NCBI GenBank assembly: GCA_905235525.1
Contig: CAJOLW010000027.1
Span: forward strand, 1-59,982
DNA: 59,982 nt
Direction: 5' to 3'
Origin: an uncultured Bacteroidaceae bacterium
GTDB lineage: Bacteria; Bacteroidota; Bacteroidia; Bacteroidales; Bacteroidaceae
Shown: positions 8,585 to 19,800 of the stretch, in pieces
Layout: the number at the start of each line of letters is the position of its first letter
How positions within the stretch are numbered: position 1 is the first letter of the stretch
The notes under the pieces: model-generated
The model's database searches: none
Told to the model about the DNA's origin: nothing
Seen by the model: the letters and a program-made list of their open reading frames with translations, nothing else
Program-made: the position numbers and the translations under genes

Positions 8585-8935
8585 TTATACCCCGAAAAGC
8601 TGGAAACGGAGGTCAAGTTCTTGTCGTTCTTCTTTTCTGGTCTCCAGCAACTCGATGGCATCAGGATCTCCACGTTCAGCTTGCTTGGCAAGTTCTGCAT
8701 CGATATTGTATTCTCCCAAGGCACGACCACGGTGATAAGCCTCGTAGAGGTCATCGCCAGGCATCTCCAGCCTGAGCATCATTGCCAGTCGTTTCTCTCC
8801 CTTCAGGTTAAGAAGCCGGCAAATGCGTTCAGGTTTGTAACCAAGTGAACCGAACGTGAGGACCTGGTTGACGCATTCAATAGGCAGCGATACCTGTGAA
8901 AGAGGTGTCGCTTCGGTAGTGGTCAGTTCTGACAT
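8585..8935 (-). CDS. Putative phage terminase small subunit
   Basis: A 116-residue protein. Residues about 30-55 (GYKPERICRLLNLKGEKR) form a helix-turn-helix-like segment, followed by YHRGRALGEYNIDAELAKQA and GDPDAIELLETRK, the pattern of small terminase subunits and related phage DNA-binding proteins in which a helical hairpin follows the DNA-binding domain. It sits two genes upstream of terL. Its start overlaps the end of the methyltransferase gene by 13 bases. The role, binding pac or cos DNA and regulating the motor, is inferred from family and context. Confidence 0.55.
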   Translation of the reverse strand: MSELTTTEATPLSQVSLPIECVNQVLTFGSLGYKPERICRLLNLKGEKRLAMMLRLEMPGDDLYEAYHRGRALGEYNIDAELAKQAERGDPDAIELLETRKEERQELDLRFQLFGV

Positions 8936-10254
8936 AGAATCAGTTGTTTAGTTTCTTCAGCATTCCAACATTTTCCCTCTCGCTCTAGTGTGACCGATTG
9001 TTCAGGAAACATCGCCATGAAGCGTCTGACAGAAGCTGCCACATACTTGGGGTCTATTTCCATTCCATATCCTATTCGGTCAGTTTGTTGGCAAGCCATG
9101 ATGGTGGATCCTGAACCAGAGAACATGTCAACTACAATATCACCGCTACTGGTGGAATTGCAGATAGGATAAGCCATCAGGGCAACAGGCTTCATCGTTG
9201 GATGAATCTTGTTGGCACGTGGCTTGTCAAAGTTCCAGACAGTTGTCTGCTTGCGATCGGAATTCCAGAAGTGTGCAGCACCTGGTTTCCATCCGTATAG
9301 GCAAGGCTCGTGTTGCCACTGGTAATCTTGCCTGCCCATCACGAGCGAATCCTTCACCCAGATGCAGCATTGTGCAATCTTGAAACCAGCTTCGCGAATG
9401 GAATGCCGGAAGTTCTCTCCTTCTGAATCGGCATGGAACACATAGAATGATCCACCTGGCTTGACAATGGAAAACATGACTTCGAACACCTGTTTGAGAA
9501 AGCGTGAGAACAAGTCATTCTCCATGGAGTCGTTTTCGATTTTGAGTTTGTCTCCGCTGCCTCCTTCATAATCAACATTGTAGGGAGGGTCGGTGAGAAT
9601 CATATCTGCATAACGGTTGTTCATGAGGATCATGACATCTCGTTTTGCACGGCAATCTCCGCACATCAGACGGTTGTTTCCAAGATGAAAGATGTCGCCA
9701 GGCTTGACGAACACCTCATTCTCTTGCAGTGGAATGTTAAAGTCGGCAGAATCGTCCTTCACTTCCAGCCGGTCACTTTCTGTCGCAAAGAGCGGTGAGG
9801 CATTTCCCATGGAGAAGTCGACCTTCCTTACTTCGTAGCCAAGATTGAATCTCTCCAAAGTATCCGCATCGATGTGATACTTCTGAAAAATAAGTGTGTC
9901 TGGGTTTTTCTGGGCGAACTCGGAATTGTAGGCGGCAATCTCCTCCACAGCTTCAGTCTTGTCAGAAGCTTGGATTTCCTCATAGGGAATTTCGGGGATG
10001 CTGAAGCCTGCCTTGCGAAGTGCCTGTAGTGCCTTTTTGCGTTGGTGGGCGTCAATAATCCACAACTTGCCGTCTGGATCTTTCCACACTTTGAATGAAT
10101 ACTTGAAACCGCGCGTGATGATGAGCATCTGGAGTTTCGATAATTTGTCAGGGTCAGACTTTTTGAAGTCTTCTTGTAGTTCGTGGAAGGAATCCAGCGG
10201 GGCAGTCGGTAGATTGCCCAAATTAAATACTTCTATAAACTTCTCCATTGTCAT
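8923..10254 (-). CDS. ParB-like domain fused to a beta-class DNA methyltransferase
   Basis: 443 residues. The N-terminal part (about 1-130) resembles ParB/Srx-type nuclease-like domains (KLQMLIITRGFKYSFKVW, then a DPDGKLWIIDAHQRKKAL segment). The C-terminal part is an amino-methyltransferase: TDPPYNVDY (residues 221-229, DPPY at 222-225) and VVDMFSGSGSTI (FSGSGS at 378-383) for S-adenosylmethionine binding, in the beta-class order. It would methylate adenine N6 or cytosine N4; the recognition site cannot be read. No restriction enzyme is adjacent, so a solitary phage methyltransferase protecting phage DNA or marking it for packaging is likely. It lies between virion genes and the terminase genes and overlaps the upstream stop by 4 bases. 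Confidence 0.88.
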   Translation of the reverse strand: MTMEKFIEVFNLGNLPTAPLDSFHELQEDFKKSDPDKLSKLQMLIITRGFKYSFKVWKDPDGKLWIIDAHQRKKALQALRKAGFSIPEIPYEEIQASDKTEAVEEIAAYNSEFAQKNPDTLIFQKYHIDADTLERFNLGYEVRKVDFSMGNASPLFATESDRLEVKDDSADFNIPLQENEVFVKPGDIFHLGNNRLMCGDCRAKRDVMILMNNRYADMILTDPPYNVDYEGGSGDKLKIENDSMENDLFSRFLKQVFEVMFSIVKPGGSFYVFHADSEGENFRHSIREAGFKIAQCCIWVKDSLVMGRQDYQWQHEPCLYGWKPGAAHFWNSDRKQTTVWNFDKPRANKIHPTMKPVALMAYPICNSTSSGDIVVDMFSGSGSTIMACQQTDRIGYGMEIDPKYVAASVRRFMAMFPEQSVTLEREGKCWNAEETKQLILCQN

Positions 10255-10631
10255 TTAGTTTGGGTTGCTTGTTGCTCGAGAATCATTTTGAACATCTCAT
10301 CTCTTTCCCTATACCGTTGCAGGTTCAGACGATCAGATGCTCGTCGAACTTTCCGGTCAGCACGCTTGATGTAGCTCTTGTATCGCCTGATGCTGTCAAG
10401 AACATTCTTGTGGCGATTGAGGAACTCTGCAGGGTCACGTCTGAAGAGGGCGAGGAGCTCTGAAAACTCAGAACGGGATGAAAGAAGTGGATGCTTGAAG
10501 AGGAAACGACCTGTGTCGTTATATGATTGCAGCTCGTCGAATGCCTGCAAGTTCCTGACCCTCAATTCCGCCATTTGGGAAACTGCTTTTGGGGTAGGTT
10601 CCTTGTCAAGCAGTTCGTCGAGCTGCTTCAT
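10251..10631 (-). CDS. C-terminal half of the repeat-containing phage protein (reached by -1 frameshift or one-base error)
   Basis: From ATG 10631 this gives 126 residues of basic, helical protein (KSYIKRADRKVRRASDRLNL) with no known family. The frame stays open upstream of that ATG for 38 more sense codons (ending RILTWRK before the Met) with no ATG, GTG or TTG until the run of nine A residues at 10746-10754 inside the preceding gene. That stretch reads like real protein. I therefore take this as the second half of the gene at 10733-11185, joined by a -1 shift on A-AAA-AAC, giving a product of about 310 residues. A stand-alone gene starting at 10631 is possible but leaves the upstream coding unexplained. 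Confidence 0.65.
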   Translation of the reverse strand: MKQLDELLDKEPTPKAVSQMAELRVRNLQAFDELQSYNDTGRFLFKHPLLSSRSEFSELLALFRRDPAEFLNRHKNVLDSIRRYKSYIKRADRKVRRASDRLNLQRYRERDEMFKMILEQQATQTK

Positions 10632-10699
10632 TTTACGCCATGTCAGGATGCGATCATTGTAGAGGATGGTCGCTGTCTGGACATCTGCGTTAGCAAGGT

Positions 10700-10754
10700 T
10701 ATCCCAATCGATGTTGGGATATTCTTGCTCTTTCAGGACTGGTCGTTTTTTTTT
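10700..10754 (-). promoter_or_regulatory. Candidate -1 programmed frameshift site (A-AAA-AAC) with downstream stem-loop
   Basis: On the minus strand the in-frame sequence CCA-AAA-AAA-AAC contains the slippery heptamer A-AAA-AAC (10751-10745) in exactly the phase needed for a -1 slip out of the 10733-11185 frame. The zero frame stops three codons later (TGA 10735-10733). A perfect 8-bp hairpin (TATCCCAA, loop of 6, TTGGGATA) lies at 10721-10700, 23 bases beyond the heptamer. That is further than usual for a stimulator. An AAGG lies about 15 bases upstream. The alternative is one A missing from a run of ten. Confidence 0.5.
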
Positions 10755-11185
10755 GGATCACTTGTGCCTTCAGCTGGTGCAGAATTTAAAACAGGTTCTT
10801 CAGCTTTCGTTGAAGGCTGCTGTTTCTTCGGCTGCTGTTTCTTCGGCTGCTGTTTCTTCGGCTGCTGTTTCTTCGGCTGCTGTTTCTTCGGCTGCTGCTT
10901 CTTCGGCTGCTGCTTCTTCGGCTGCTGCTTCTTCGGCTGCTGCTTTTGTTGCTGTGCTGGCAAAATCATTTCTTTTTTTCGTCTGTTTGCAACAATTTCC
11001 TCTGCTGTCGCCACGTCGAGCAGGGCATAGAGTATTTCTTCCGCATAACGGGAAGGGTTTCTACTATACCGCCCAATGTCAGGAGATGAAGGAACTCTGA
11101 CAGCCAAAAGAGTTAAGTCTTTCTCTGCAGCAGATCGAGAGGAAAGCTTATTTGACAAGCAGATTTTTTCTTTTGTTGAATACAT
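10733..11185 (-). CDS. Phage protein with (KKQQP)8 tandem repeat, N-terminal half
   Basis: 150 residues from ATG 11185, 11 bases after the stop of the preceding virion gene. Residues 1-75 are a small helical domain (RYAEEILYALLDVATAEEIVANRRKK), followed by a low-complexity Lys/Gln/Pro region with eight perfect KKQQP units and a short acidic-polar tail ending at TGA 10733. The repeat resembles flexible linkers or DNA-contacting tails. I do not recognise the family. The frame ends at a slippery A run, and the downstream frame continues the protein (see 10251-10631). Position between capsid-related and DNA-modification genes suggests a virion or packaging accessory, which is inference. Confidence 0.7.
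   Translation of the reverse strand: MYSTKEKICLSNKLSSRSAAEKDLTLLAVRVPSSPDIGRYSRNPSRYAEEILYALLDVATAEEIVANRRKKEMILPAQQQKQQPKKQQPKKQQPKKQQPKKQQPKKQQPKKQQPKKQQPKKQQPSTKAEEPVLNSAPAEGTSDPKKNDQS
10815..10934 (-). repeat. Eight tandem 15-bp repeats coding KKQQP
   Basis: Plus-strand unit GGCTGCTGTTTCTTC repeats eight times without interruption. The five copies at lower coordinates read TTT and the three at higher coordinates read CTT at one position, a synonymous AAA/AAG change in the coded lysine. A further partial unit follows. The block pattern implies stepwise expansion from two variants. The repeat is open in several frames on both strands, which creates false ORFs. Confidence 0.9.
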
Positions 11186-11196
11186 AGTAATGAGCA

Positions 11197-12132
11197 TTAA
11201 GAACGTGAAACTTCTACGAGAGTGTTTTGATCCAGGACACGAAGCGTGAGTGCATGTCCAACAGCAGCTGTCCACGCTGTGCCTTCTGCCAAGATGAATG
11301 TCGTGTTACCCACCACCTTCTTGGGTTTCGTTGTACCAGCACCTACAAGTGTGATGTATCGTCCCTTGTCCGATGTGGTGAGACCAGATACATCGGTGAT
11401 TTCAACATTTGTGGTGGCACCATCGACAATCGAATAGTTATTGGATCCAGGAATGGTGGCAATTTCAGTTGCTGTAGGGGCTACTTCTGTTGAGTAAGTG
11501 ACCGATGGATTGCCAAGGTACTTGAGTGGGAGGTCAACAGATTGACGGACGAATGTGAGTTGGGTGAAACGCCCATCAGCATCATCGTGAGTCTCTGTAT
11601 TGTTGAGAATGACAGGACGTTCCAACTCACCGAGGATGAACCACTGGCTCTCTTTCACATGCTTATACAAGATGATGAATTTACCACCGGCAAACTGTTC
11701 AACAAAATTCGAAATTTGGTCGCGGTCGCCTCCTGCGACGATGACAAAGTTGTTGCTGCCCGAGGTCGTGATATCACCTTTCTCTGTCGATGACGAGAGC
11801 GTTGGGATGGTGTGTGCCTCGATGTAATGTGGAATCTCTCCAGTCTTCAAAGTCATTGGTGAGACTTCACGATTCCCATTTGGCTGCGGAAAGTCAACGG
11901 AACGATCAATCTGGTCGATGGAGACGAGGAACACCTGATAAGCGATTGCGGACCCGTGAGTGTCTCGGTCAGTTACGTCATCGATGTGTCCAATCGCCAT
12001 CATGCCAGCGAGAGAAACGCCTGCGGCAATGATGTTGTCTGAAAAAGAGTGGCTAACCGCCATTACGCAGAAGATGAAGGCAAGCAGGCCAAAAAAGAAA
12101 AGAAACACTTTACGTGTGTGATGAGTTTTCAT
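11197..12132 (-). CDS. Probable phage virion protein (tail tube or capsid decoration) with N-terminal hydrophobic segment
   Basis: 311 residues, directly downstream of the major capsid gene. After an N-terminal basic and hydrophobic stretch (KVFLFFFGLLAFIFCVM) the protein is beta-rich, with IGHIDDVTDRDTHGSAIAY, a KTGEIPHYIEAHTIPTL segment and RFTQLTFVRQSVDLPLKYLG, followed by an Ig-like C-terminal region of short strands. This composition suits a major tail or decoration protein. A membrane-like N-terminus is odd for such a protein; a second in-frame ATG at 12063 would remove it, and I cannot decide between the two starts because neither has a strong ribosome binding site. Confidence 0.6.
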   Translation of the reverse strand: MKTHHTRKVFLFFFGLLAFIFCVMAVSHSFSDNIIAAGVSLAGMMAIGHIDDVTDRDTHGSAIAYQVFLVSIDQIDRSVDFPQPNGNREVSPMTLKTGEIPHYIEAHTIPTLSSSTEKGDITTSGSNNFVIVAGGDRDQISNFVEQFAGGKFIILYKHVKESQWFILGELERPVILNNTETHDDADGRFTQLTFVRQSVDLPLKYLGNPSVTYSTEVAPTATEIATIPGSNNYSIVDGATTNVEITDVSGLTTSDKGRYITLVGAGTTKPKKVVGNTTFILAEGTAWTAAVGHALTLRVLDQNTLVEVSRS

Positions 12133-14216: not shown

Positions 14217-14609
14217 TTAAAGGTTGTACAAATTATGTTTAAGTTGCTGATTTTCGGAATGTCGTACTCCCATCTGATAGGCTTCCGCCACGGCATCGAC
14301 AAAGGTGGATACACCATCGGCAAGACCTACGTCGATGGACTCTTGAGTAAAATAGACCTCACCTCGCATTACGGGTGCGTCGTCATCCTGTTGTGACAGT
14401 GCTTGACGCTGCGACCTGACGGTTGTCAGGAACTCATCATTCATAGGGTTGAGCACACGTTGGATGAACTCTTCAGGCTTCCCATTCTTCAGATCATCTG
14501 GCATCTTGTTCTTAAGGTCAGACTTGGTGGCACGTGCTTCAATCAGTTTGATGCCAAGCTTCTCGTAATAACCCTCAAAGTCGTGGAAACTGACCATAGT
14601 GCGATACAA
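14217..14609 (-). pseudogene. Phage head protease (S49/SppA-like), C-terminal part in a shifted frame
   Basis: Encodes TMVSFHDFEGYYEKLGIKLIEA, which is the segment that directly follows the glycine-rich turn in S49-family phage proteases (pattern GT-MVSF-D-YYEKLGIK), then RGEVYFTQESIDVGLADGV, the family's 'A...GLiDgi' region. It has no natural N-terminus: it begins inside the coding region of the upstream frame. Restoring one G (ATC-GCA to ATC-GGC-ACT at about 14603) fuses it to 14543-15193 into one protease of about 340 residues. Confidence 0.7.
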
Positions 14610-15193
14610 CCGGCAAAGTCATACTGTGTGGTGGCGAGCACCCTGTTTCCATGACAGCCAATATGATAGGCGGCGGAACAGCAGCTCTCCTCGTACAGAG
14701 TGAGGATTGGTTTGGTGCAATGCTGGAGAGTCTCACTCAGGCGGTCAAGGTACCACGCTTCTCCGCCTGGTGAGTTAATATGAAGAAAATGACATGAAAT
14801 GGATGGGTTCTGTTCAGCTGCAAGCACGTCCAGTTCCAGCTGCTTGCTGGATGCCCACCAAAGGCTGTCGGCAAAGATGGGTCCCCAGATGCGATGATAT
14901 GCCACTGACTCCTGTGGCAGTTCTGGTGAATCGAACTCGTCCGTGACGTTGATGCTCTTGGTGGCATCATCCTGGTAAAGTTTCGCCTTTAGGACTGCCA
15001 ATGCTTTTTTTGCCTCTTGCTTGTATGTGGGAGGATCAATGAAGAAGAACTCTTTTACGGACGGCATGATTGCCTTGCCGTTCGGTTGTGGGTTCTGATG
15101 CATGGCAAAGGCAAGCATCATCAACTGGCGATATCCCTCCGATGTAATCCAGAGGGGACGCTCAGAGAAAAGAAATTGGATTAAATCGTGCAT
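14543..15193 (-). pseudogene. Phage head maturation protease (S49/SppA-like), N-terminal part
   Basis: Start chosen at ATG 15193, which has AAAGG five bases upstream. The 216-residue frame holds the S49 fold: HINSPGGEAWYL (substrate-binding strand and oxyanion Gly) and ESCCSAAYHIGCHGNRV, where the Ser before AAY is the likely nucleophile. After DFAGCI the frame departs from the family and soon stops (14543), while the expected continuation is in the next frame at 14217-14609. These ClpP/SppA-like proteases trim scaffold and capsid protein during prohead maturation and sit just upstream of the capsid gene, as here. The break may be a real mutation or a one-base error. Confidence 0.75.
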
Positions 15194-15247
15194 ATACCTT
15201 TGAATTTTTCCCAAAGGTATATATATAATAATGTGTGTCAAATGACA

Positions 15248-16840: not shown

Positions 16841-19800
16841 TTAATATGGAAAATTCTGATCGGCTGAAGGGACGAATGGTAGTTGGGGGTCCGTGAGCCC
16901 CTGACTTGACGGCTCTGACGGGGTCATGTCAGTGGAATCCTCACTAGTCGAATTGGGGGGGGGAGTTGAGCGTCTGAAGTCCATGTTGTAGAGATCAAGA
17001 AACTTGTCGTAGTTGAGCACTGTGGCAGAAGTCATCACCCCTTTTGTTTCAGCTTGACGCTGAACGCTGCCGGTCTGTTGGTTGTAGACCTTCTCGACCA
17101 CCTCTTCCCACTCGAAGCGGTGGGAGGAAATCTGTCCAATATAAGATGGATGAGAGCGCAGGTTCTGGTCGATGGTGGATTTTGTCGTGCGCTCAGTGTT
17201 GAAAGAAGAACGGTCGTAGTAGGAGAAAATGGTGGCTGTGCGGAGGAAGAGCACGTTGGTGCCTGGTTCGAAAGCGATGGTGACCTTGTTCCCCTGGGCA
17301 TTGATAAGCGTACAGCTTCTTGGCTGCTCGATGGTGAAGTCTCTTCCCTCAATGATGGTGCCTGTATCGATCATCGTATTCATGGCGGTGAAGAAGTTGG
17401 CGAGTTTGTCCGTCGTCTGGATAAGCGACATCTGGAAGTCTATCTTCTTGACGGATAGTTCGAAAAATTCCTCATAGGTGAAGGGAAGTTTCAAACTGGT
17501 GTACTGCTCGACGAGCTTCACTGTGCCCAGGAAGAACGACATGGTTTTCATGATGCGATCCATTTGTCCGGAAACGACGGCATTGCGTGTAAGTTCTTTG
17601 TATGCTTCCTTGCGGAGGCTTGGAAAATGATCCATGAAGAGGGGACGCAAAGCCAGTACTTCCAGTAAGACGTTAGACAGTCCCACGTAGTTCGGATCTT
17701 CGATTCGTTTCAGTTTCTCAAAGAGTCGCACTTCCTCTGGTGTGCGTGACTTTGTGGGGTATGGTACCTCGCAGATGATGACACGGTTCATCAGGGCGTT
17801 GTCATCTCGTTGAGGAGTGTCCTGCCCGCAGATGACTACCGGTGCGTACACCTTGTCTTCTTCAATTTCTTTGCTGCCAGCAGCTTTGCGCTTCTGCTTT
17901 CCGTCTCCATCATAGACGATGGCCTTCAGGGCTTGGAACTTATAGTCACTGATCTCATTGTTTTTGTATTCCTCCAGAACCACTGGCACATCGCGGAAGG
18001 TGCTCATGATGGTGGATAGGGCTGCATCGGTACCAGTGTTGAGGTTGAAAGCGGCAACCGATGGCGAGACAAATAGCGAACGGATGGAAATGGCTATCTG
18101 TGTTTTTCCGGAACCTGTAGGTCCCATGAAGAAGGGTGCCGTGAAGAGTCGTTCCAGACAGTGGATGTTGCTTCTGAAGGCGCACATGATAGCATAGATG
18201 ATTGCCCATTTTCCATTGTCGTTCACTTTGTACACCTCGTTCATCAGGGACGCCCACTGGTCAAACGTGACCTGTTTATCCATGGGAACTTCCCGATAGA
18301 CGAGTTGTGAGATAAGATCATACCTGCTCTTTTTCTTCTCGCTGCCGGCATAGATGGTTGAAAATGCCGGCAAGTAATAGTTTTTCTTTTCATGCATCAC
18401 CACACCCAGCTCGTCAGCCTGGCTGAAGGTGGGTACCCCGTCGACGAAGTGGAAGATGCCATTGGCGAAGGCGAAGAACTGTTGGCTGGGCAGACGTGAA
18501 GTGCCACTGTCCTGTTGATTCCCGTAGATTTCCACTTCTGAGCAGATGACATATCGACGGCTCATGTATTCTCGTATTTTCGTCCAGTGGCTTTCTTCCC
18601 CATTCGTGAAGTTAACGGCATCAAGGTTGATGAGGATTTCTTCAATGGTGGACTTCTTCAGCAATGATTTCGACAGCACCTCGATGTATATGGGCGTATC
18701 ATAGTAACGCCTGTCGATGCGCAGTACTCGCTTGTTCTGCTCGTAGTCGTCATTGTATATGTGGAGGAGAGGAGTCATGAAGAAATCGCCCACTTGAGTC
18801 ACGCCGTTGCCGTTCTTGTTGCGAAACATGTAACAAAGCGGTTTGCCTCCTTTACCGAGGCGTGGGAAGAATCCGCATTCCTTCCACATCTTTTTGTACT
18901 CATCGTTTTCTTCCACATAGTCGGGCAAATCGTCTCCATAGTCGAAGTCGTCACCGATGTCCTCGCTTTGGCTGCTGATGGCAAGTTTAGATTTCCGTTT
19001 GGCAAGAAGCGGTTTGCGGATCTCGTCGAACTGACCACGGGTGATGTGCAGCAGAGAGCAGTAGTTTCCCCGATTGATCGTGATGACGGCATCGGCCACA
19101 TAGATGGTCAGTTCAATGCAGCGGAGCACCAGTGGGGTATGGTCACCATCGAAGCCGGCCAGGAATCCGCCATGCAATGCAATGTAGTAATCAAGGAAAG
19201 ATGGATTGGCATCACCATCAGGAACACTCATGTTGGTGATGCCCAATCGGAAGAAATCCGCCAGGGCGTGAAGGTATTCGGACTCGTTGCCTTGTCGGTC
19301 AATGTTGCACCCCTGACTATCACAGACGAAGTAACCATAAATACTCCTCAGTCTCTCGATATCGGACATCTCTGGCACCCCCGAAATGTAGAGGATGGCA
19401 CTGTCACCATAACTGTCCAGGAATGCTTGAAAGTCGTGAGTGATGACAGCAGGCTTGTTCTGCTCGATGTGATCCTTGAGTACGTCAAGGCCATAGATGC
19501 CAGGTTTCATCTCAGACTCAGCAGGCAAGGCATCCACACCCCTGCGGATGTCACGCACTTTCTCTTGCATCATTGGTACACCCCGCCTGAAGCTTTTGCT
19601 CACTTCTGCTGTATAGCTCATGCGCAGCGATACATCCCCGACACAAGCGACGAGCCCTAAGATCTGGTTGATGGCTTCAGCCTCCACAATGGAATCTTTA
19701 TTGCCATGGGGAATGAGGGTCTTTCGGAAATAGGATGGGAATGACATTGTATTCTCCTTCAGCCATTCGGCTGTCTTTGCGCCGGTCTTACGGGCGAACT

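Follow-up and report, generated by a model that had tools for sequence, protein, structure and literature searches.

A conserved run of nine adenines, and its probable use for transcriptional slippage, in a putative tail assembly chaperone gene of Bacteroidota phages

Frameshifting in the tail assembly chaperone genes of tailed phages is a textbook ribosomal event, and in the G/GT arrangement it takes the form of a two-product gene lying right behind the tube gene (PMC5009743). Two products can also be obtained from one gene by slippage of RNA polymerase, and bacterial genes for which this has been described include Thermus dnaX, Shigella mxiE and spa13, Citrobacter tssM and IS elements (PMC1088944, PMC4256274, PMC5009743); a run length of nine is that at which selection against slippage becomes visible in a large share of bacterial genomes (PMC1088944), and runs of this length are known to matter for slippage (PMC1088944, PMC5009743). 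In phages, slippage has been suggested for the methyltransferase of CPt10 (PMC2853527) and for two Acinetobacter prophage proteins, one of them a tape measure protein (PMC6095929); in the accessible parts of these papers, both cases concern single genomes, with neither a conserved run length nor a tail chaperone. The paper on the P. gingivalis phages, which are predicted to be siphoviruses, mentions frameshifts once in its accessible text, for spanins, and reports prophage particles for P. gingivalis ATCC 49417 (PMC10367356). In a literature search largely confined to papers outside subscription, we found no description of slippage or frameshifting in the gene reported here, in which the layout of the tail chaperone genes is apparently run by the polymerase.

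The gene lies in a contig of an uncultured Bacteroidaceae bacterium (GCA_905235525.1, contig CAJOLW010000027.1, positions 1–59,982), and this whole stretch of 59,982 nucleotides is referred to below as the window. The two-frame layout that an initial annotation had described at 10251–11185 was found as described; the strand, which that annotation did not give, is the minus strand. The features of the locus are as follows.

11197–12132, minus strand: probable major tail-tube protein (P0004), the gene directly upstream, with a lambda gpV-like fold.
10733–11185, minus strand: zero-frame ORF (N part), from ORF reading, comprising N-terminal domain and repeat linker and ending with a stop three codons beyond the run.
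10970–11185, minus strand: conserved N-terminal domain of 72 aa (MYSTKEK...NRRKKE), placed by the N-domain HMM.
10814–10948, minus strand: low-complexity linker (QKQQP)(KKQQP)8, in relatives replaced by other repeats or coiled-coil-like stretches.
10746–10754, minus strand: run of nine As on the coding strand, the proposed RNA polymerase slippage site, whose last six As form an in-phase A-AAA-AAC with the next C.
10254–10757, stop 10253–10251, minus strand: C part (P0001) in the −1 frame, 168 codons, with no start codon ahead of its conserved block.
10251–10631, minus strand: ORF of 126 aa that an annotator would call, whose starting ATG lies within the C part; a probable mis-start, judged by C-part conservation and the start-codon count.
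10700–10721, minus strand: 8 bp hairpin, unconserved among relatives and, from folding and pairing counts, probably outside the signal.
8923–10254, minus strand: DNA N6/N4 methylase (PF01555), an inconstant downstream neighbour.

The zero frame opens with the ATG at 11185 and reads CCA AAA AAA AAC across the run, then GAC CAG TCC and the stop codon TGA (10735–10733), which places A-AAA-AAC in phase, as the initial annotation had it. No other stretch of As or Ts in the 59,982 bases reaches a length of nine; on the plus strand the run reads T9. In the −1 frame, translation could run from 10757 as far as the stop codon at 10253–10251 and, again as proposed, 38 codons lie between the heptamer and the first ATG of this frame (10631); that this stretch is protein-like is borne out by residues W18, V26, A29 and R36, all of them ahead of the ATG and invariant in 20 homologs. 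The (KKQQP)8 repeat on which the gene had been described as a repeat protein is likewise present, preceded by one QKQQP, and is the window phage's own version of a linker whose length ranges from 13 to 255 residues across 86 loci. From phage to phage the linker is made of KKQQP, EEAPA or GEGNEPPAD repeats or of coiled-coil-like stretches; a short 84% match to the repeat stretch was seen at another place in the same genome (G000:C44:15239–15283, locus L002). The warning that other one-base breaks occur in the window was also well founded, with at least one being present: the prohead protease gene (14220–15241, minus strand) is divided over two frames close to 14,600, its halves matching consecutive parts of the phrog_53 profile. 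Either the sequence is in error here or the prophage is decaying.

Among annotated phage records, 20 contained a relative of the C part, and 18 of these were P. gingivalis phages; a single-sequence search gave 16 IMG/VR loci. For the wider search we used an alignment of 20 C parts as the profile, which returned 27 loci in GTDB genomes and, in IMG/VR, 94 relatives of which the best 80 were taken; within the order, 12 of 393 genomes, including that of the window, had a match. The split gene thus found belongs to phages of Bacteroides, Prevotella and Porphyromonas. A total of 136 loci were analysed (the IMG/VR share being drawn from the best 80 of 94 relatives), and removal of 34 duplicates by means of a 450-base signature left 102 distinct loci. 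The N domain was located by HMM in 96 of these; there was no N match in L024, L034, L105, L108, L135 and L136, and all of these six except L136 show A9 in a −1 overlap. Locus L045 was excluded from the tree and the clusters for a stop inside C, and L058 from the start-codon count. As the 96 loci are not independent of one another, cluster counts are also given. The nine P. gingivalis phage records inspected list the two parts as separate hypothetical proteins and place the start of the second within the conserved C part.

The run scored in each locus was the longest stretch of at least seven As between the N and C domains, with no length set in advance. Nine As with a −1 relation of N to C were found in 86 of the 96 loci, and in 43 of 51 clusters (80% C-part identity; L045 excluded) this was the sole arrangement; the comparison with homologous prophages that had been suggested as a check on the initial annotation thus found nine As and both frames conserved. 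Overall, the run was A8 in five loci, A9 in 88 and A10 in three. The ten departures comprised A8 with a +1 relation (four loci), A10 with −1 (two), A9 with +1 (two), A8 with −1 (one) and A10 in frame (one), where A8/+1 and A10 in frame are the outcomes expected when one A is lost or gained from A9/−1. Inspection by eye of four more distant loci (L143–L146) again showed A9, together with an ORF resembling N that stands in the −1 relation. Such runs are rare in the surroundings, with 12 other A9 or T9 runs in 751,823 flanking bases. The length is kept in every codon phase: the run starts at codon position 1, 2 or 3 in 17, 28 and 41 of the 86 A9/−1 loci, and when the three classes are mapped on a tree built from 95 C parts they require 8, 11 and 13 changes, of which well-supported branches alone force at least 7, 7 and 8. 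A homopolymer of about nine As whose length is kept whatever the frame, as would be expected of a slippage site, is therefore what we observed.

Two of the departures deserve a separate description. Locus L058, with A10 and with N and C in one frame, is the sister of the A9 locus L057 in the C-part tree, and is either an assembly error or a natural reversal, in which case slippage there would give the short form. Loci L048 and L111, which are related, share GGGG-A8-G with a +1 relation and perhaps stem from a lineage that uses the loss of one A.

Codon choice around the run was counted over all run lengths, since sets restricted to A9 in a fixed phase would force the result by definition. Where the run ends AAA AAA AAN, the preceding base is A in 43 of 44 loci (the exception, L095, has A8); this base is no part of the heptamer and in most loci is a wobble position open to any base, and the relevant four-fold codons elsewhere in the same ORFs end in A in 22–30% of cases. 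Of the 39 runs starting at codon position 3, in which a final AAA would bring the length to ten, 38 have AAG as their last Lys codon; of the 20 starting at position 1, in which AAG would limit the run to eight, 19 have AAA. The background elsewhere is 1351 AAA and 1297 AAG Lys codons. These codon counts are the same fact as the length count and not independent of it; what they indicate is that neutral codon choice would not maintain nine.

With regard to the C part, we looked for a start of its own. Between the last in-frame stop and the [FY]PxIxW block there is no ATG, GTG or TTG in the C frame in 88 of 95 loci; an upstream ATG is present in five loci and a GTG or TTG in two, and a separate start for C is accordingly not the general arrangement. 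The C part is predicted to be all-helical (pLDDT 90.9), and its model had no fold match in the PDB (best E 1.6) or among viral models (best E 1.0). In five distant genomes (L147–L151) it is contained in an unbroken ORF of ∼240–300 residues that lacks any stretch of seven or more As; one of these loci, L148, is the place of L022. As these single-ORF homologs align with the C part (hhalign E 1.7e-12), a long form does occur naturally. Their N-terminal end and the N domain, when compared, gave an hhalign probability of 0.5%, which does not support homology. All three single-ORF homologs tested matched PHROG 21662 (phrog_21662). P0004 belongs to the family phrog_19897, which is also matched by the gene ahead of one single-ORF homolog; in two more, the gene in that place is similar by eye.

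From the comparison of sequences we regard a conserved frameshift at the nine-A run as almost certain. The idea of the initial annotation that a −1 shift completes one product therefore stands, the same layout being present in 86 of 96 loci, whilst its choice of A-AAA-AAC as the signal is less well supported, because it is nine As in any phase that are kept. Its caution that a missing A might account for the break is removed as a general cause, as 85 of the 95 other N-domain loci share A9/−1. A sequencing or assembly error, or a decaying gene short of one A, would find a parallel in the broken prohead protease gene of the same prophage; the layout is, however, also present in named genomes, e.g. 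Prevotella multiformis DSM 16608, Hoylesella marshii DSM 16973 and Prevotella amnii DSM 23384, leaving this explanation with next to no probability as a general account. Phase variation at the DNA level, in which mutation of the run length would switch the long form on and off, is suggested by the fact that homopolymers of nine mutate readily, by the A10 of L058 with both parts in one frame, and by the A8 or A10 of other loci. It predicts a mixture of on and off states, yet 88 of 96 runs have nine As and in 95 of 96 loci N and C are out of frame; the run-length distribution tells against this proposal, which we consider highly improbable. In our view the shift is probably made by RNA polymerase slippage and not by the ribosome, as the conservation of nine in any phase, the wobble-base codon bias, and the scarcity of SD-like motifs together with an unconserved hairpin are more readily explained by slippage than by a ribosomal heptamer.

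Programmed −1 ribosomal frameshifting on an in-phase A-AAA-AAC, A-AAA-AAG or A-AAA-AAA would yield the same two products. Every A9 run, whatever its phase, holds an in-phase A-AAA-AAN slippery heptamer, and so a ribosomal shift is possible in any single phage; in addition, G follows the run in 82 of the 86 A9/−1 loci, and low-level −1 ribosomal shifts are described for lambda-type chaperones (PMC5009743). A heptamer needs six or seven As, however, and all 96 runs have eight to ten. Heptamers ending in AAG are stronger than those ending in AAA, and despite this all but one of the runs that start at position 1 end in AAA. Furthermore, six loci require a +1 shift, two of which (L053 and L055, closely related) have A9. 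Neither a conserved downstream structure nor an upstream SD-like stimulator, as would be expected of a ribosomal site, was found among the relatives: an SD-like motif lies within 20 bases upstream in only 14 of 96 loci, and although the perfect 8 bp hairpin seen initially is indeed present at 10721–10700 (z = −3.63 for the 50 bases that contain it), it is probably not a stimulator, its eight pairs occurring in relatives at about chance frequency (75 distinct segments from 92 loci). The hairpin-forming motif lies anywhere from 9 to 103 bases from the run across relatives, and over the 50 bases that follow the run folding is marginally more stable than in shuffled sequences (mean z −0.61 in 86 loci; control stretches −0.19 and 0.18), a weak excess that counts against the slippage account. 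Some phage frameshift sites lack stimulators (PMC5009743), so a missing stimulator is not decisive against the ribosome; taking these points together, we judge ribosomal frameshifting to be unlikely. Ribosomes have been reported to slide along poly-lysine AAA tracts irrespective of phase, and sliding of this kind on the A run would match the phase independence of the data; in an E. coli cell-free system little product was obtained at A9 or A10 whilst it was robust at A11 (PMC4363877), and such sliding seems very unlikely here.

As for the role of the protein, the genomic neighbourhood provides the main indications. The P0004 model, made from an alignment of 45 (pLDDT 85.2), has chains of lambda gpV as its best PDB fold matches (8iyk, E 8.3e-5; 7t4f, 6.7e-4; 8iyd, 1.3e-3), with mostly phage tail, tube and Hcp chains thereafter; TM-scores by model length are 0.2–0.3, and two matches have E < 0.001. 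In every one of the 91 testable loci a member of its family lies upstream of N; the distance is at most 150 bases in 81 of them and at most 300 in 88. Since this neighbour is predicted to fold like a tail-tube protein, the gene would occupy the usual position of a tail assembly chaperone, next after the tail-tube gene, a fit that is subject to the low TM-scores. The initial annotation had deemed the frameshifted product new for its place between capsid and methyltransferase genes; this argument is weakened, because the adjoining gene is tube-like by its model and a methyltransferase match lies downstream in only 42 of 93 loci. Two nested products from one start, the G/GT layout, fit the arrangement of the gene in 86 of 96 loci, the products being predicted. 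That the frameshift is real and the protein something other than a chaperone, e.g. a scaffold, head–tail or packaging helper, would agree with the packaging genes for terminase and portal that follow in the annotated P. gingivalis phage records, and with a tape measure gene that is not adjacent, as a chaperone would have it, but ∼13 kb downstream in BK068099, the one record read whole; in the genome of the window, a search run with no positive control found no tape measure gene. N and C parts had no usable match in PHROGs, Pfam, NCBIfam, the PDB or viral models, where it should be considered that chaperone families are divergent, so that a missing match tells little. Given that the C part has no fold match, the chaperone role is argued from position and layout. 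With a tube-family gene upstream in every testable locus and one start for two nested products set against it, a non-chaperone role is possible but doubtful, and the gene is likely to specify a tail assembly chaperone.

Two further observations concern the neighbouring genes. In the window and in several relatives, the tube-like P0004 has a hydrophobic, signal-like N-terminal helix, which is odd for a tail-tube protein. Additionally, genes of P. gingivalis phages listed as 'acr candidate', such as that at 17334–17657 of BK068099 (L023), lie between methyltransferase and terminase, in the place of P0011, and by this position may rather be small terminase subunits.

If the gene is a chaperone gene that yields two forms through transcriptional slippage, an account that as a whole we find somewhat more convincing than not, most transcripts would retain nine As and give the short N product, with N domain and linker. 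In a fraction of transcripts RNA polymerase would slip on A9, adding one A or dropping two, which would bring the C part into frame and give a long N-linker-C protein. The products would be two forms of the tail assembly chaperone, with N corresponding to lambda G and C to the lambda T domain, which deals with the tube protein. We lean, by a small measure, towards the broader view that, throughout a large group of Bacteroidota phages, polymerase slippage on a kept run of nine As has taken the place of the ribosomal G/GT frameshift, such that the chaperone ratio is set at transcription, with some distant relatives having the C part in one unbroken frame. These findings would amend the records of P. 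gingivalis, Prevotella and Bacteroides phages in which the gene is listed as a pair of 'hypothetical' ORFs. They would also provide a natural reference length for slippage by the polymerases of Bacteroidota, nearly a hundred loci being natural instances of a single run length.

Compared with known systems, the gene resembles lambda G/GT in its place directly behind the probable tail-tube gene and in having a short zero-frame and a longer −1 product, both predicted here. It differs in that a nine-A run in any phase is conserved in place of a heptamer, a long repeat linker precedes the shift, the tape measure gene is not adjacent (in BK068099), and no sequence or fold match was found. The relatives in PHROG 21662, to which the database assigns no function, are distant homologs of the C part, and unlike the window gene they consist of one unbroken ORF with no A run of seven or more. 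The gene also resembles the bacterial slippage genes, in which nine As (Thermus dnaX) or eleven (Citrobacter tssM) allow one gene to give two products (PMC1088944, PMC4256274, PMC5009743). Whereas several of those are backed by RNA or protein experiments, the present case is known from sequence alone, and concerns what would be a virion-assembly gene of phages, kept throughout a large phage group.
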